A DNA stretch of 64,000 nt from Candidatus Nitrosopumilus limneticus (GTDB taxonomy: Archaea > Thermoproteota > Nitrososphaeria > Nitrososphaerales > Nitrosopumilaceae): assembly GCA_022117465.1 (NCBI GenBank), contig JAHCGZ010000003.1, forward strand, positions 62,001 to 126,000, read 5' to 3'. The translations under genes and the position numbers were made by a program. The notes under the pieces are model-generated. The model saw only the letters and a program-made list of their open reading frames with translations, searched no databases and had not been told where the DNA came from. Of this stretch, positions 23,633 through 32,735 are shown in pieces (position 1 is the stretch's first letter; the number at the start of each line of letters is the position of its first letter).

Positions 23633-26600
23633 TCATGCATAGTCTGTAAGTAGTGATTGATCCCCTTGACTTTTACCAAAAACTAATTCAATTTCATCAG
23701 ATAAAGCATAAATTCGTCCGCGCTGATATTCACCAACATTATATTTGTCAACGAGTCTTTTTGCAAGTTTTAGATATTTTTCAACTGAACCTCTAGTAAT
23801 CGTAGCAATTAATTTGTGGCCACAAACACATGTTTGAATCAGAGGTATTCGACGATATGATTTTCCACATGCAGTACATCTAAAACTTTGTTTTGCATAT
23901 GCTCTAAGATTTCCCATTATATCGGGAATAAGATGTGTTGAAATTACATTTGAAACCAGTTCAGATGGATTCACTACATCAATTAATTCAGCATTTCTAA
24001 CTTGCATATCAAATTTATCAAGCATAGAACCTAATGTTGAATATGCACTTCGAGATTTGGAAGTTGTTAATGATGAAGTTAAATGAGTAAAATGATAATC
24101 ATAAAATTGTCTTTTAGTGTCCAATCTTGATTTAATAATTTCAACTGAAGTAACATCTGAGGCTTTACTTTGTTGAATTGTAGATTCAAAAAATTCTAGA
24201 GGAAGTATTTTTGTTACTTCAAGATTATGTGCCTGAGGTTGAGATTCGTGTGGTAAAACAAGAGGTTGAATTAGTAATGGAGCGTCCATTAATCCTCCTA
24301 TTTTATCAGAAAGAAATTGTCGTGAGAAATTAAGTAAGCTGTCCATGAGTAGCATTATTGAATCAGCATCTCCATCAGCATCACGTCGTTTTGCTGAATG
24401 CCAATTTGGCGTACCAAAACAAACATGTGTTTCAGTGTATCCAATAATTCTGCCTACAATTCCAACAGAAGTATGAGGTGCTAAACCAATTATCAGATGA
24501 CCAATTAATTCTTCTATATTATTTACATTGTAAAATGATGATTTACCATAAAATTTTACTAATAATGTATCAATGTATTTGCAAGTAGAAACTAAATATT
24601 TTCCACTTTCATTTGGAATTATAACATCTTGTATTCTAAGCTCAATAGTTTGATCAATATTTTCAATTGGTTTTCCATCGATATCATGTGAATAACCTAA
24701 TTCCTTTAATTTTTCAATTGAAGTACCTATCCATGACGGTTTGAATTGAGTTAAAGGAGAATTTGTTGCATCAAATCGAATAGTTCCATCTTTGAATGTA
24801 GTTAAACCATAATTTTGGCGCACAAGTCCCTTTTCAAGAGGCTCTGCAATTTTATCTTCACTGATTAATTCTTTGACACCTTTGAAAGGTTCTTTTGCGC
24901 GAAGACCCATTTTTTCTTGAGCTAATAGTAGTCGTGATTTTAATGGGAATTCTTTATGAGAATGTGCTGGAGCTTTTCGTTTACATTTTTCACAAAATTG
25001 TTCTGTTAATACATCCCTACAATTATTACATCTGAAAAAAATTGTTGTTTTTTCACCACATTTAGAACATTTAATCCCAATAGATGGTTCATTACATTTT
25101 AAGCAGTGTCTGTTGTAAATATTTGTAAAAAAGTGCTCATTTTGGGATGCTTTGAGAAGATCTCTTGTTGGACCACCTTTGTCAGAAGTTGGAAATAATA
25201 CATGCGTAGGAGGCTTCATTTGTCGAGGAGCTGCTTTTTCAGGTCTTCCAATTCTAACTCCAATTGAAGTAGAAAATTTATTATTAATTTTAATTTTTGA
25301 TGAATTTGTTAAAATTTGAGGAACGGATAAACCGTTGATAATTGGTTTTGTTACAAATAATAAATTGAAGAAAACTTTTGCTTCATCATTTTCTAAAACA
25401 ATAATTTGATCTTCAACTTTATGTGGCGTCCCTAATTTCTCTAGAATTTTTTTAATTTCAATTGAATATTCAATTTTATTTTCATTAAAATTTCTTGGTT
25501 GTAAAAGTTGAAGTAGTTCTTCTATTGAAATTTTATCCCAATAATATAGATAATGAGGATGTAATGAAAAGTGAAAATCAATTGAAATTTTTAATGCTTC
25601 TTCAATAGAGGGTAATTTTGTTAAGAATTGCTCTAGATATTTATTTTTAGGCTCAGAATTTGAAATAATTTGTTTTAGTTGTTCTATCCAAATTTCTTCA
25701 ACATATCCTGAAGGAATTAGTTGAGCATTGTTTTCAAGAAAATCTCCAAATGTAATTAGTATATCCCCAAGATGCAGAATTTTTTCAATTTTATTTTTAA
25801 TTTTTATCCCATGTTCAACATCTTTAATTTTTACAACATCTCCATTTTGAAGGCGCACTATTGGGGTTTCAATAGAATCAACAAATGCTACAGTTGCTCC
25901 TTTTCCTGGAATATCAATTTTGACTTGTGTGCCAACTGCTATAGTATGATCTAAAATTTCAGCAACAACTGGATGAAATCCTACTGCCGCAAAACCAGTA
26001 TTACATGCTCTTCCATATCTAAGACGAAACCCACCCAATTTGTTAGGCATAGATAATACAGATCTACCTGTAATTACCTCACGCATTCTTTTTGCTGCTG
26101 CATCTTCCTCATTATCACCTGTTTGAACTGCACCTTTAAGATCATTAAGCCACTCCCAGCCATCTAATTTGTACATGTCAATTCTTTGTAGTAATTTTTT
26201 TGATCTTCCAATTAATCCGTCATTTAGTACACGTAAAGCTCCTCCTCTAACTCTATCAGTTTTGATTCGAGTCATTCCTTTATGATTTACAACTTCATAT
26301 GGATCAGTATCAACACCAGCTAATTCAACTGGAAGATTTGAAATTACATGTTCAATATCTTCATCCAAAATATGAAATTGAAAGCTACTAGCTTCTCTTT
26401 CATAAATTCGTAATTCTTCAATAAATCTACCTGTCTCATCATCAAAAGAGTTAGCCTGAAATTTAGATAATCCTGTTATTTTTCTAACATGATCTGCAAT
26501 TAACAAAGTAACTGCAGATTCTGTACCGCCTGCTGAACGCATAGGTCCTGCAATTGAAACTGATAGATAATCAGTTCCATCCTTGTTTTTCTTTATTTTG

Positions 26601-27010
26601 ACTTCACTAATTCCTTGTAAAGGTGCAATTGTAACACCTTCAGTAATTATTGCTAACCCTACACGTACTGCAAGATCTAATTTATCTTCTAATGAAGCAT
26701 TAGGTAAAGAATATTTTCCTAAAGCAATATCTTCTGCTAAAATTAATGCAGAACGTTCTTTACCATTAATTTTTAAAATTTCTCTTAGAGGAGCCGCAAT
26801 ATCAATTTCGTGCATTTTAGCTACTCGATCTGCTAAATCAAATGCAATTTTAGGCTCAATAATTCCTGAGGAGTCTACTAATGTAGATTTTGCTAATGCA
26901 GCATGCTCAAAAATAGAATATGTTTCAGTTGAGAGGTTTGAATAATAATTTAGGTAATAATCTGGCATCTCAATACCACGAATTCTAGAAATTGCATCGT
27001 TTTCAGCCAT
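23633..27010 (-). CDS. polC: DNA polymerase D large subunit DP2
   Basis: 1125 aa; VSIAGPMRSAGGTESAVTLL, NTGFAAVGFHPVVAEILDHTIAVGTQ, HSAKRRDADGDADSIMLLMD, C-terminal zinc finger; no intein. Confidence 0.96.
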   Translation of the reverse strand: MAENDAISRIRGIEMPDYYLNYYSNLSTETYSIFEHAALAKSTLVDSSGIIEPKIAFDLADRVAKMHEIDIAAPLREILKINGKERSALILAEDIALGKYSLPNASLEDKLDLAVRVGLAIITEGVTIAPLQGISEVKIKKNKDGTDYLSVSIAGPMRSAGGTESAVTLLIADHVRKITGLSKFQANSFDDETGRFIEELRIYEREASSFQFHILDEDIEHVISNLPVELAGVDTDPYEVVNHKGMTRIKTDRVRGGALRVLNDGLIGRSKKLLQRIDMYKLDGWEWLNDLKGAVQTGDNEEDAAAKRMREVITGRSVLSMPNKLGGFRLRYGRACNTGFAAVGFHPVVAEILDHTIAVGTQVKIDIPGKGATVAFVDSIETPIVRLQNGDVVKIKDVEHGIKIKNKIEKILHLGDILITFGDFLENNAQLIPSGYVEEIWIEQLKQIISNSEPKNKYLEQFLTKLPSIEEALKISIDFHFSLHPHYLYYWDKISIEELLQLLQPRNFNENKIEYSIEIKKILEKLGTPHKVEDQIIVLENDEAKVFFNLLFVTKPIINGLSVPQILTNSSKIKINNKFSTSIGVRIGRPEKAAPRQMKPPTHVLFPTSDKGGPTRDLLKASQNEHFFTNIYNRHCLKCNEPSIGIKCSKCGEKTTIFFRCNNCRDVLTEQFCEKCKRKAPAHSHKEFPLKSRLLLAQEKMGLRAKEPFKGVKELISEDKIAEPLEKGLVRQNYGLTTFKDGTIRFDATNSPLTQFKPSWIGTSIEKLKELGYSHDIDGKPIENIDQTIELRIQDVIIPNESGKYLVSTCKYIDTLLVKFYGKSSFYNVNNIEELIGHLIIGLAPHTSVGIVGRIIGYTETHVCFGTPNWHSAKRRDADGDADSIMLLMDSLLNFSRQFLSDKIGGLMDAPLLIQPLVLPHESQPQAHNLEVTKILPLEFFESTIQQSKASDVTSVEIIKSRLDTKRQFYDYHFTHLTSSLTTSKSRSAYSTLGSMLDKFDMQVRNAELIDVVNPSELVSNVISTHLIPDIMGNLRAYAKQSFRCTACGKSYRRIPLIQTCVCGHKLIATITRGSVEKYLKLAKRLVDKYNVGEYQRGRIYALSDEIELVFGKSQGDQSLLTDYA

Positions 27011-28320: not shown

Positions 28321-28941
28321 ATGGGCATAGAAATTGTGATGTTAGTAGAAATTCCTGATCCTGAAGTGATTTTAGGAGTGATTTTAGCATTTTTGATAGG
28401 TCTGGGTGGTTTGTATCTATTCATTAAAGTACGTCCATTCATAAAATCTAGTAGTGATATTACTGATCCTACTCAGACAGAGCGCTTAGAGTATTATGAA
28501 AGACAGTTAATTGATATGAAAATACGCCTAGATGCATTAGAAATTCAGGGTGTAGTTGAAAGTCCTGTGGATTCTAATCTAGAATTAAAACAGTTTATGC
28601 AAAGATTGGTTGATAATAATCAAGAGTTTGACAAAGAAATTGAAGTGATAAAAGAGCCTAATATTGTTAAAAAACCTGTTTTTGTGCCTAATATTTCAAG
28701 TATTGAACATGTGAGCCCTACAAATTACGTGTTGCAGTTAATCACAAACAAATCTATGACATCACGTGATATACAAATCACAACAAAACGAAGTAGAGAA
28801 CATATTTCTAGATTGATGAAGAAATTATTTGAAAGTGGATTAGTTCAAAGGAACACACAAACAAAACCATATACATATTCAATTACTGAAAAAGGAAAAT
28901 CCAAAGTTGAATTAGATGTTGCATCTTCAGTTATTATGTAG
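28321..28941 (+). CDS. membrane-tethered winged-helix protein
   Basis: N-terminal TM (VILGVILAFLIGLGGLYLFI), coiled-coil, C-terminal wHTH SPTNYVLQLITNKSMTSRDIQITTKRSREHISRLMKKLFESGLVQRN. Confidence 0.8.
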   Translation: MGIEIVMLVEIPDPEVILGVILAFLIGLGGLYLFIKVRPFIKSSSDITDPTQTERLEYYERQLIDMKIRLDALEIQGVVESPVDSNLELKQFMQRLVDNNQEFDKEIEVIKEPNIVKKPVFVPNISSIEHVSPTNYVLQLITNKSMTSRDIQITTKRSREHISRLMKKLFESGLVQRNTQTKPYTYSITEKGKSKVELDVASSVIM

Positions 28942-29065: not shown

Positions 29066-29227
29066 ATGTCAGTACAGGAAAACGAAGTGTTGGTAAAGAT
29101 CACATCTGCAGGCACTATTTCGATACCAAAACAATTTAGAAAATTTATGGATATACAAAAGGGTGAATATGTAAAAATAATTCTTGGAAAAGATAGATTG
29201 ATAGTCAGAAAAGTAACTATAATTTGA
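29066..29227 (+). CDS. SpoVT/AbrB-like DNA-binding domain protein (53 aa)
   Basis: Hand translation MSVQENEVLVKITSAGTISIPKQFRKFMDIQKGEYVKIILGKDRLIVRKVTII*; AbrB/MazE swapped-hairpin pattern. Confidence 0.75.
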   Translation: MSVQENEVLVKITSAGTISIPKQFRKFMDIQKGEYVKIILGKDRLIVRKVTII

Positions 29228-29620
29228 TTAGTTTTGTTGTTTTTGAGTAATTTTTAGGGTTTGGTAAGTCCATTCTTTACCAGTTCTAATCCTTTCTACC
29301 CTACCTTTTGAGGCAAAACGTGACAAATATGTTGAAATCACACTAAGTTTTACAGGTTCGTTAAATTCATCTTCATATTTCTCAAGAATGTTATTTGAAG
29401 TAAATTTGCCTATAGGGAAAAATTTATCCACAGTATGCCAAATTTTAGAGCCTGTAGAGTCCATTTTGACTGATTTTTCTTCCTCTTCTTCAATATTCAT
29501 CAAGTCCATCATTTCAAATATTTTAAGGACTTTTTCCCTGGTAACATTTCCTTCTAATTTAATGTCATAACGGGCCCCGTCTGCATCCTCCATATCTATA
29601 CGTATACGTTTTTTAGCCAT
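29228..29620 (-). CDS. conserved hypothetical protein, possible winged helix
   Basis: 130 aa; C-terminal VKLSVISTYLSRFASKGRVERIRTGKEWTYQTLKI looks wHTH-like. Confidence 0.7.
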   Translation of the reverse strand: MAKKRIRIDMEDADGARYDIKLEGNVTREKVLKIFEMMDLMNIEEEEEKSVKMDSTGSKIWHTVDKFFPIGKFTSNNILEKYEDEFNEPVKLSVISTYLSRFASKGRVERIRTGKEWTYQTLKITQKQQN

Positions 29621-29777
29621 GTCTTTGAGATCTAACAGATCAAATATCAGTGGTTAGATTGATCTGATCAGATTTGTTAACATTGTAGTTTGTTAACATT
29701 GACTGCCTAACCTACGCTTAGCATGTTTTGTAATATTAACACCTAGTTTCTTAATTATCCCCCTTTTATGAAAATTA

Positions 29778-29806
29778 TCACGCCTGGAGTGGAAATAAAG
29801 GGGTAA
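29778..29806 (+). promoter_or_regulatory. origin recognition box 1 (ORB-like)
   Basis: TCACGCCTGGAGTGGAAATAAAGGGGTAA; resembles archaeal ORB core (TGGAAA...GGGG). Confidence 0.85.
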
Positions 29807-29838
29807 TTTTGAGATATTAACAGTGTTAATGAGTTTCT

Positions 29839-29867
29839 TCACGCTTGGATTGGAAATAAAGGGGTAA
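29839..29867 (+). promoter_or_regulatory. origin recognition box 2 (ORB-like)
   Basis: TCACGCTTGGATTGGAAATAAAGGGGTAA; same orientation, 61 bp downstream of box 1. Confidence 0.85.
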
Positions 29868-30107
29868 AAACAGGCTTTTTTTTATTTTTCTTCATATAAA
29901 ATTAACAAATTGTTAACCATTTTTTCTAACAATGACCCACACACCAATATTTCTACTCTCATTTTTTAAAATTAATTTTTTTTAAAAAATCTAAATCTAA
30001 CTAAAAATAACTAATCATAAACTAAACTAGAATTACTATTGTGAACTATACTCTTTTTGATAAAAGATGATTAAGATGAAACATAATGGAAATGAAGGTG
30101 TCTGAGT

Positions 30108-31310
30108 ATGTCTGATCCAATTGACAGAATGCTTGATGCAGCAGAATCAGGAAAATCAATAATAAAAAATCGAGAAATTCTTCATTTTACATATATTCCA
30201 AACATAATATTTCATAGGGATTCTGAACAAGAACAAGTCACTCAATCACTACTTCCAATTCTAAAACAATCTAGACCATCCAACTTACTAGTTTATGGTA
30301 AACCTGGAACTGGTAAAACTTTAGTTGTTAAAAAAGTCCTTTCTAAAATTCAAGAAAGAGTAGAAAAATCAAACTTTCCAATAAAATTAGTATATGCAAA
30401 TTCTAAAAACGAGACAACATTGTATGGATTATTAGTCAGTATAGGCAGGCAATTAGGACTAAATGAGAAGGAATTACCTACAACTGGGCTTGCAATTAGT
30501 GAAGTTTTCAAAAGATTGCTAAACAAAATTAGAGAAGAAAAACTTAACGCGATTTTTGTAATTGATGAAATAGACTATCTTGCACAATTAATAGCAAAAA
30601 CTGGCAAAGATATCTTATATCAACTCACAAGAGCAAATGAACAATTAGAGGTTGGTTCTTTAACTATGGTGGGAATTTCAAATGACTTAACATTCAAAGA
30701 AAAACTTGATCCACGAGTAATTAGCAGTCTAGGCGAGGAAGAAATTGTATTTACAAATTATAATGTTGAACAAATTAAAAAAATTCTGAAAGAAAGAATT
30801 AATGAATCTTTTATTGAAAATGCAGTACAAGAACCTGCATTAAACCTCTGTGCTGCACTTGCTGGAGGAGAGCATGGAGATGCTAGAAGAGCAATAGATT
30901 TACTTCGTGTAGCAGGAGAACTAGCTGAAAGACAACAATCTAACCACGTCACAATTGAACATGTTAGAGAAGCCTCTCTTAAAATTGAAGAAAATAAAGA
31001 AGAAGCCTCTCTAAAATCATATCCACTACACGAAAAATTAGTACTTTTAGCCATAATGAAGGCAAACGGATCCTCTACTGGGGAGATTTACTCTTCATAC
31101 AAAAACCTCTGTAAGTCAGTTGGAAAAGACGAATTAACTCAAAGACGAATTACACAAATGTTAAGTGAAATTGAATTATCAGGAATTATTTCTGGACGAC
31201 TAATTCATCAAGGAATTCATGGAAGAACAAAAAAATACAAACTTACAGTTACATCTGAAATGATAAAAAAATCTTTTAAAGACGAATTAACTTTGCAAGA
31301 TATTATTTAA
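30108..31310 (+). CDS. orc1/cdc6: Orc1/Cdc6 replication initiator
   Basis: LVYGKPGTGKTLVVKKVL Walker A, FVIDEIDYL Walker B, GEHGDARRAIDLLRVAGELAE sensor 2, C-terminal wHTH. Confidence 0.96.
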   Translation: MSDPIDRMLDAAESGKSIIKNREILHFTYIPNIIFHRDSEQEQVTQSLLPILKQSRPSNLLVYGKPGTGKTLVVKKVLSKIQERVEKSNFPIKLVYANSKNETTLYGLLVSIGRQLGLNEKELPTTGLAISEVFKRLLNKIREEKLNAIFVIDEIDYLAQLIAKTGKDILYQLTRANEQLEVGSLTMVGISNDLTFKEKLDPRVISSLGEEEIVFTNYNVEQIKKILKERINESFIENAVQEPALNLCAALAGGEHGDARRAIDLLRVAGELAERQQSNHVTIEHVREASLKIEENKEEASLKSYPLHEKLVLLAIMKANGSSTGEIYSSYKNLCKSVGKDELTQRRITQMLSEIELSGIISGRLIHQGIHGRTKKYKLTVTSEMIKKSFKDELTLQDII

Positions 31311-32735
31311 ATTTGAATTATAATTCTCATGAAAAATTTGAAAAGTTTTTAGATTTACAATGATGGCAAGACCTGGATTTGGAATCATTCCAACACTTGC
31401 TTGAAAAGGTGTTTGTTTTTGCCAGGAACCTGAATTAACTAACAAAATTCCTTTGTACATACCTAATTGAGCCTTGTGTACATGTCCTACATGAAAAATA
31501 TCTGGGATATCTTCAATTACTAAGAGATCCTCCATTTCTGGTGCTATTGGTGTTGAGCTACCATAAACTGGACTTAGATGTCTAGCTCTAAGAAGACTTT
31601 TCATAACATCAGTTGGTCTATCATAACTTAACCCAGGAGTAGTCTTTACAATATCATCTATACTTTGGCCATGAAACATCAATACTTTAACTCCATTTAA
31701 TGAAATAAGAGCTGGATTTCCAACCATTTCAATATTTTCTCTTTCCCATAAACCAGAATTATATTTTCGTGGGATTGCAGGTTGAGGCAGGGCTCTTCTA
31801 CCAGGATCATGATTTCCAGGCATGATGATAATTTTAATATTTTTTGGAATCTTATCTAATAGGTTTTCTGCTTTTTGTAATTGCTCTTCAATTGTTTGGC
31901 AAATCAGTTCTTTATTCTGATTTGGGTATATCCCAACACCGTCAACTACATCTCCACCAATTAATATAAAACGAATTTTTCTAGCAACTGCATCCGGACT
32001 GGATAACCAATTTACAAATTCAATTAATTCTTCTTCCATGAAGTATTTACTACCAATATGTAAATCAGATAGAAATACAGCATACACTTCACTTTCTGAT
32101 TTGTTAATTTTTTGATCTGGAATATCAGGTAAAATCAAATCTTTAATAATTAATCCTGAATTTTTAGATGTAGTAACTCGCGCCATAACAAATTGATCAA
32201 TAAGCAGAGTTCCAGCAGACTTTTGTAATTCTTCATCAAAAATAATACCTTCAAATGAGCCTGTAGGATCTTCTAACAATAATTTTGTGACATTTCTTTC
32301 AATATCTCTTGTGGTAACTAATCCACACACATACACGTCATTTTCTAATTTTGTCGTTTTAACAACAGATATTGATTTTATCATTTTCGACTCTGGTCTA
32401 TCTGAGATAATTCGTTTAAGCTTGTTAAAACGACTAGAAAACAAAGCATTGTATCCTTTTACTCCTTCTCCTGATGTAATTTTTTGAGTAGGATCTGATA
32501 ATATCCTCATTTCATTTTGAAGATTAGGGTCATCTTTTATTCCAAGATATGTTTCTAAATCATTTTGATTAATTTGAAATAATTTTTGTTTAGTTTTCTC
32601 TTTAACTACTTCTTTAATGATTCTCTCTAATTTTTTTACATCAGTAATATCATCTAAAATTTTAAATGCATCTGGATGAATTTGAATTCCTTTGGTCAAA
32701 GCATAATTTAATACAAAAGATAACTCCTTTTTCAT
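31287..32735 (-). CDS. polB: DNA polymerase D small subunit DP1
   Basis: FLSDLHIGSKYF, GGDVVDGVGIYPNQ, MPGNHDPGRRALPQPAI, HVGHVHKAQLG phosphoesterase motifs. Confidence 0.95.
   Translation of the reverse strand: MKKELSFVLNYALTKGIQIHPDAFKILDDITDVKKLERIIKEVVKEKTKQKLFQINQNDLETYLGIKDDPNLQNEMRILSDPTQKITSGEGVKGYNALFSSRFNKLKRIISDRPESKMIKSISVVKTTKLENDVYVCGLVTTRDIERNVTKLLLEDPTGSFEGIIFDEELQKSAGTLLIDQFVMARVTTSKNSGLIIKDLILPDIPDQKINKSESEVYAVFLSDLHIGSKYFMEEELIEFVNWLSSPDAVARKIRFILIGGDVVDGVGIYPNQNKELICQTIEEQLQKAENLLDKIPKNIKIIIMPGNHDPGRRALPQPAIPRKYNSGLWERENIEMVGNPALISLNGVKVLMFHGQSIDDIVKTTPGLSYDRPTDVMKSLLRARHLSPVYGSSTPIAPEMEDLLVIEDIPDIFHVGHVHKAQLGMYKGILLVNSGSWQKQTPFQASVGMIPNPGLAIIVNLKTFQIFHENYNSNLNNILQS

Follow-up and report, generated by a model that had tools for sequence, protein, structure and literature searches.

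The 487-bp gap upstream of orc1/cdc6 in the 64,000-nucleotide stretch analyzed here (the window) carries the elements of a chromosomal replication origin of the Orc1/ORB type, an assignment in which we place high confidence as regards the origin itself, and the locus is almost certainly the sole start of chromosome copying in this marine ammonia-oxidizing archaeon. We read it this way because its origin recognition boxes (ORBs) are unique, orc1 is present once, a four-box plan recurs across the class, AT skew changes at orc1 in relatives, and genes for DNA polymerase D (PolD, identified by Pfam) lie on both sides. The single orc1/cdc6 copy was counted in a genome of 1,189,543 bases (8 contigs) that is 95% complete, such that a second ORB cluster may sit in the missing DNA. 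As an origin it adds one more example to a known type, a single origin having already been mapped in Nitrosopumilus maritimus, and the locus supplies a near-complete parts list of an origin for ammonia-oxidizing archaea. In addition, a second motif and origin-linked, uncharacterized DNA-binding genes across the phylum point to an unrecognized partner in replication start.

Boxes and AT-rich DNA upstream of orc1/cdc6

An earlier note on this DNA had proposed an origin from two direct boxes and an AT-rich stretch, and its reading is supported by the uniqueness of that ORB pair, the single orc1, the class-wide conservation of the pair and its spacing, and the AT-skew change in three relatives. 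The two boxes are real, but the count was incomplete, as the gap holds four boxes, which fall into two sequence classes, and a further repeated motif (Table 1). The 29-mers lie on the plus strand at the reported positions with the reported offset of 61, and they differ at two positions, not three. No copies are scattered around the chromosome: at up to 3 mismatches, ORB1 and ORB2 are the only ones in the whole genome, and a reversed-control 29-mer gave zero matches there. Scored with a position weight matrix that was trained on relatives and excluded the window, ORB1 reached 46.7 bits and ORB2 35.8 bits, with the next site in the 64 kb at 0.1.

Table 1. Features of the putative origin and its neighborhood, in window coordinates.
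Feature	Position	Strand	Description
DNA polymerase D large subunit (DP2)	23633..27010	-	Pfam PolC_DP2 domains
wH2	28321..28941	+	206 aa; apparent N-terminal membrane helix, coil, winged helix; single-copy
wH1	29228..29620	-	130-aa winged-helix gene divergent from orc1; candidate TGTTAA binder
Second-motif copy TGTTAACA	29675..29682	.	Conserved column block
Second-motif copy TGTTAACA	29691..29698	.	Conserved column block
Second-motif copy TTAACA	29736..29741	+	Conserved
ORB1	29778..29806	+	Class I box; about -323 from orc1 in relatives
Palindrome TTAACAGTGTTAA	29817..29829	.	Between ORB1 and ORB2; conserved
ORB2	29839..29867	+	Class I box; direct repeat 61 bp downstream of ORB1; about -262 in relatives
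ORB2-ORB3 gap	29868..29934	.	AT-rich; candidate unwinding/helicase-loading region; layout as in S. islandicus oriC1, ORB2-DUE-ORB3 (PMC12141716)
Palindrome TTAACAAATTGTTAA	29902..29916	.	Center 29909, about midway in the ORB2-ORB3 gap; conserved
ORB3	29935..29959	-	Class II box AGAGTAGAAATATTGGTGTGTGGGT; inverted, faces ORB2; conserved in relatives and class
ORB3-ORB4 gap	29960..30082	.	AT-rich, with CTAA-rich conserved block; also likely orc1 promoter
ORB4	30083..30107	+	Class II box ATAATGGAAATGAAGGTGTCTGAGT; ends at orc1 start codon; conserved in relatives and class
orc1/cdc6	30108..31310	+	AAA+, Cdc6 lid, C-terminal winged helix
DNA polymerase D small subunit (DP1-like)	31287..32735	-	Next to orc1; Pfam DNA_pol_E_B and metallophosphatase

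ORB3 and ORB4 were revealed by alignment of relatives and share the pattern TGGAAA..(A/T)GGTGTGTG(G/A)GT. They scored 41.4 and 19.7 bits in the corresponding matrix scan, again with the window left out (next site -4), and rank genome-wide as the best and second-best class II matches, with 0 and 1 mismatch. ORB4 overlaps a possible Shine-Dalgarno sequence, AAGGTG, because of which its conservation could be partly translational; however, ORB3, which is inverted and away from start codons, has the same GGTGTGTG tail.

The common archaeal ORB motif from Ori-Finder 2 is TCCA[CG]T[TG]GAAA[TC][GA]AAGGGGT (PMC4164010). Its right half, T.GAAA..AAGGGGT, is intact here, with ORB1 and ORB2 matching in full through the G-string (TGGAAA..AAGGGGT), whereas ORB3 and ORB4 end in GGTGTGTGNGT rather than GGGG. 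The likeness to known ORBs claimed in the earlier note is good in the right half, but in the left half the canonical TCCA reads TGGA or TAGA in Nitrosopumilaceae (CCTGGA/CCTAGA). Relatives outside the family match the published motif in full, their boxes mostly being CTCCAGTGGAAATAAAGGGGT (PMC4164010). The TGGA/TAGA left half is best read as a lineage variant of the same box, because TCCA stands at the same position in most other families of the class; the TCCA half also differs between published lineages and is not required for ORB membership. Compared with the other class families (loci L084-L123), the change from CTCCA to CCTGGA/CCTAGA occurred in one family, Nitrosopumilaceae.

As the earlier note had observed, no gene occupies the gap (there is no open reading frame of at least 50 aa within 29621-30107) and an AT-rich stretch precedes orc1, with 29965-30082 being 83% AT. 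Duplex stability in the region is lowest at 29965-30014, which ranks in the bottom 0.3% of all 50-bp stretches of the window. The interval from ORB3 to ORB4 also contains a strongly conserved block of CTAA repeats, CTAAATCTAACTAAAAATAACTAATCATAAACTAAACTAG (~29990-30040), which may belong to the unwinding region or to the orc1 promoter. Upstream of this, the oppositely oriented ORB2 and ORB3 flank DNA that is 81% AT at 29868-29931.

This layout resembles Sulfolobus oriC1, where an AT-rich region is enclosed by ORB2 and ORB3 in inverted orientation, each of them needed for activity, and a sequence called ucm, about midway between the boxes, is bound by the protein UBP (PMC12141716). Common to the window and Sulfolobus/Saccharolobus oriC1 are the oppositely oriented boxes around AT-rich DNA, a short element other than an ORB about halfway between the boxes, and the adjacent orc1. 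From the arrangement we infer a mechanism in which the single Orc1 protein would bind all four boxes, with ORB1 and ORB2 in tandem on one helix face (61 bp, about six turns), and in which the facing ORB2 and ORB3 would bring the MCM helicase onto the AT-rich DNA that they enclose, as described for oriC1. Binding at ORB4, over the ribosome-binding region, would probably also let Orc1 damp its own expression, and the interleaved TGTTAA/TTAACA sites would be bound by a second origin protein, most likely wH1, acting in a role comparable to that of UBP at ucm. Published work on relatives supports two of these steps, namely that Orc1 binds ORBs and that MCM is recruited between inverted boxes (PMC12141716).

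Conservation and base-composition skew in relatives

Both class I boxes were present in nearly all of 80 loci from Nitrosopumilus, Nitrosarchaeum and kin, fetched with the Orc1 protein, that had enough upstream sequence; the pair mostly lay near -323 and -262 from the orc1 start, 61-62 bp apart. The search of related genomes that the earlier note had suggested gave class I matches in 174 of 187 Nitrosopumilaceae genomes, nearly always exactly two, with zero control matches. Farther out in the class, in other genera, families and orders, the same box plan was found upstream of orc1 in most cases, and the offset of the pair (60-62 bp, about six helical turns) was kept across the class. Genomes inside one family are related rather than independent, and the family labels used below (f14-f47) are arbitrary.

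Two variations were seen among these loci. In L069, the ORB4-containing stretch is duplicated upstream of orc1, at -248 and -21. Seven complete genomes (G056, G057, G059, G060, G131, G162 and G166) have chromosome records that start 145-160 bp upstream of orc1, which cuts the origin at about ORB3 and parts ORB1 and ORB2 from orc1.

The locus also agrees with what has been published for the same family. In N. maritimus a single origin was mapped (Pelve 2013, as cited in PMC4010727 and PMC5333045); it adjoins cdc6 and has ORB repeats, and the repeats and the cdc gene have served as an origin landmark (PMC5797428). The inverted ORB3, ORB4, the TGTTAA array and the winged-helix neighbors are absent from the open-paper descriptions of that origin.

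Since the source genome is fragmented, skew was computed from sampled stretches of three complete relatives (G130, G088 and G080). AT skew contrasted the two arms about orc1 in all three (p=0.025, <0.0002 and 0.0016, respectively), with the best break point within ~20 kb of orc1 in G130 and G088 and ~80-120 kb off in G080. The skew analysis called for in the earlier note came out in part as predicted, as AT skew changes sign at the locus and no consistent maximum lies elsewhere, but GC skew was inconsistent. GC and GGGT skew did not point consistently to the locus among the genomes sampled, and were dropped as origin evidence because their contrasts disagree between genomes. Gene-order symmetry between G130 and G088 was likewise dropped for having too few anchors; in this pair, gene order is mostly the same around the origin, and a few inversions lie toward the opposite end. 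The AT skew favors a replication landmark either at this locus or at its antipode, and taken alone the signal reads the same at an origin and a terminus.

A second motif among the boxes

The gap contains 9 copies of TGTTAA/TTAACA, compared to 0.7 expected in 487 bp, and these are interleaved with the ORBs. Across relatives, the motif occurs at 21/kb in origins and 1.2/kb elsewhere, and it persists in GC-rich genomes of the class (six copies in L093, at 60% GC). Apart from the origins, dense TGTTAA clusters turned up only as coding tandem repeats in the 1.52 Mb sampled from three relatives; two clusters of this type, in L172 and L184, were set aside. The sequence TTGTTAACATTG was considered as a genome-wide nucleoid site and rejected, as the origin accounts for two of its three exact copies and its near-matches are no commoner than those of a reversed control.

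Regions with ORBs across the phylum carry the motif as TGTTAA or TGTGAA, and some families have related variants. In 20 orc1-wH1 intergenic regions outside the class, TGTGAA was found 89 times (12.7 expected) and TGTTAA 59 times (24.5 expected), and control hexamers were mostly not enriched, with the exception of TGTAAA (46 vs 27.7). The TGTGAA variant occurs in f14, f19, f29, f34, f20, f25 and f39, as well as in one family of the class. ORB-bearing regions carry TGTATA/GTATAA in f37 and ATGTAA/TGTAAA in f16, two provisional variants chosen after looking at the sequences. In f28, represented by one genome, TGTKAA enrichment was not significant.

The palindrome midway between ORB2 and ORB3 occupies the place of ucm, and its identity with ucm was rejected: it reads TTAACAAATTGTTAA, is palindromic and belongs to a multi-copy array, whereas ucm (ATTATACAAAC) occurs once. 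A near-match to ucm was found only in f37, where GTATAA repeats are accompanied in some genomes by a ucm-like TTATACAAAC. At one f37 locus (L282, genome G360), an ORB cluster and eight GTATAA repeats lie beside wH1. Alba and a gene resembling actin are nearby, the 14-kb neighborhood lacks orc1, and a single CTTATACAAAC next to an ORB is one base off the Sulfolobus ucm over 11. The crenactin and Alba neighborhood suggests that f37 belongs to Thermoproteales.

The winged-helix gene wH1 and its link to the boxes

The gene orc1/cdc6 was identified by profile and structure matches (Pfam Cdc6_lid 1e-24 and Cdc6_C 1e-20; NCBIfam TIGR02928, 372 bits against a cut-off of 181; PDB relatives 2v1u and 2qby, E ~1e-82). 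Its divergent neighbor wH1 is single-copy in the genome and matched no Pfam family. It stands beside orc1 in 113 of 120 loci of the class and in 131 of the 201 genomes of a phylum-wide sample; outside the class, the two genes are divergently adjacent, 587-961 bp apart, in 34 of 79 genomes from 10 families.

Both upstream regions were scored with the published ORB motif against shuffles in 29 genomes that have wH1 and orc1 at non-adjacent positions. ORBs were found upstream of wH1 only in 18 genomes (f16, f35, f37, f42 and f44), upstream of orc1 only in 11 (f20, f25 and f39), and never at both. By this distribution, the linkage of wH1 to the ORB locus does not depend on orc1, and the ORBs are not merely an orc1 operator. 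It also bears on the proposal that the boxes serve only for orc1 autoregulation while replication starts elsewhere, as might be suspected from ORB4 abutting the orc1 start codon and from ORB3 and ORB4 flanking the orc1 promoter region. We consider this highly improbable given the 18 genomes from five families with ORBs upstream of wH1 and none upstream of orc1, the 14-kb neighborhoods of two of them that contain no orc1, the AT-skew change at the locus in three relatives, and the single origin of N. maritimus with its ORB repeats and cdc gene as landmark (PMC4010727, PMC5333045, PMC5797428).

In the 11 genomes of f20, f25 and f39, TGTKAA occurs 81 times at the ORB-bearing orc1 upstream regions and 6 times at the ORB-less wH1 upstream regions (paired p=0.0005). 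Because the motif here goes with the ORBs and not with the wH1 upstream region, it is not simply a wH1 operator. Thus across the phylum the second-motif site and the wH1 gene follow the ORBs, not simply orc1, and an ORB-wH1 pair would help to locate origins in families where orc1 has moved off the ORBs and a search next to orc1 fails.

In a structure model of wH1 (mean pLDDT 79.5), an N-terminal beta-hairpin and a helix precede the winged helix. The folds closest to it are those of MecI, BlaI and Fur, and these matches are all weak (best fold E 5e-3; no Foldseek match below E 1e-3); by profile, the best E was 0.08. The operators of MecI and BlaI are TGT/ACA dyads with half-sites TGTA/TACA, which fits a wH1 that reads TGTNAA by analogy, without proving it. 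While MecI/BlaI repressors are its best weak matches in fold and profile, wH1 differs from them in having no significant sequence match, its own N-terminal beta-hairpin and helix, a single copy, and linkage to the origin. From that linkage we infer that wH1 may be the TGTTAA binder.

This resemblance to repressors of the MecI/BlaI/Fur kind, together with the position of the array between two divergent genes, would also suit an ordinary transcription operator that is uninvolved in replication and serves wH1, or some other regulator, in controlling orc1 and wH1. We think this unlikely: in genomes with the two genes apart, the motif accompanies the ORBs at either gene (81 vs 6 copies in the 11 genomes, although the motif may still control orc1 in f20, f25 and f39), and the palindromes in the window sit between ORB1 and ORB2 and midway between ORB2 and ORB3.

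It is somewhat less doubtful that the array is an origin element read by another protein, either Orc1 or a nucleoid protein of the UBP kind, with wH1 as a mere syntenic neighbor. UBP, the protein at the Sulfolobus ucm, is described without mention of a winged helix (PMC12141716), and f20, f25 and f39 keep the motif although wH1 is encoded elsewhere. However, wH1 stays with the origin in the five families where orc1 has left, two genomes with ORBs upstream of orc1 and no detected wH1 show no TGTKAA excess (a small control, n=2), and the BlaI/MecI half-sites TGTA/TACA are close to TGTNAA.

Taken together, these patterns suggest that the TGTTAA/TTAACA motif is bound by a second origin protein, most likely wH1. 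The fuller proposal, which we offer tentatively as a serious possibility, is that wH1 is a previously unrecognized second origin-binding factor of Thermoproteota, which would bind TGTNAA arrays, differing by lineage, among the ORBs, be linked to the origin independently of orc1, and be a counterpart of UBP in helicase loading or release. Judged by its description, UBP is unrelated to wH1, and the paper on it confines it to Desulfurococcales and Sulfolobales and ends with the question of whether archaea of other lineages possess comparable proteins at their origins (PMC12141716, 2025). The window offers a candidate protein, wH1, and a probable site in answer to this question. A literature search of open papers, with subscription papers outside its scope, found no origin-linked winged-helix gene in these archaea.

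In nearly all genomes of the class where one contig carries both genes, coordinate comparison places the second winged-helix gene, wH2, within ~1-5 kb of orc1. A relative of wH2 (E 3e-10) was found beside wH1 at an orc1-free ORB locus of family f16 (L283, 6934-7428, minus strand). With its apparent membrane helix, wH2 is a possible link between the origin and the membrane. Between the wH1 and wH2 genes, a 53-aa AbrB/MazE-type DNA-binding protein is encoded on the plus strand at 29066-29227.
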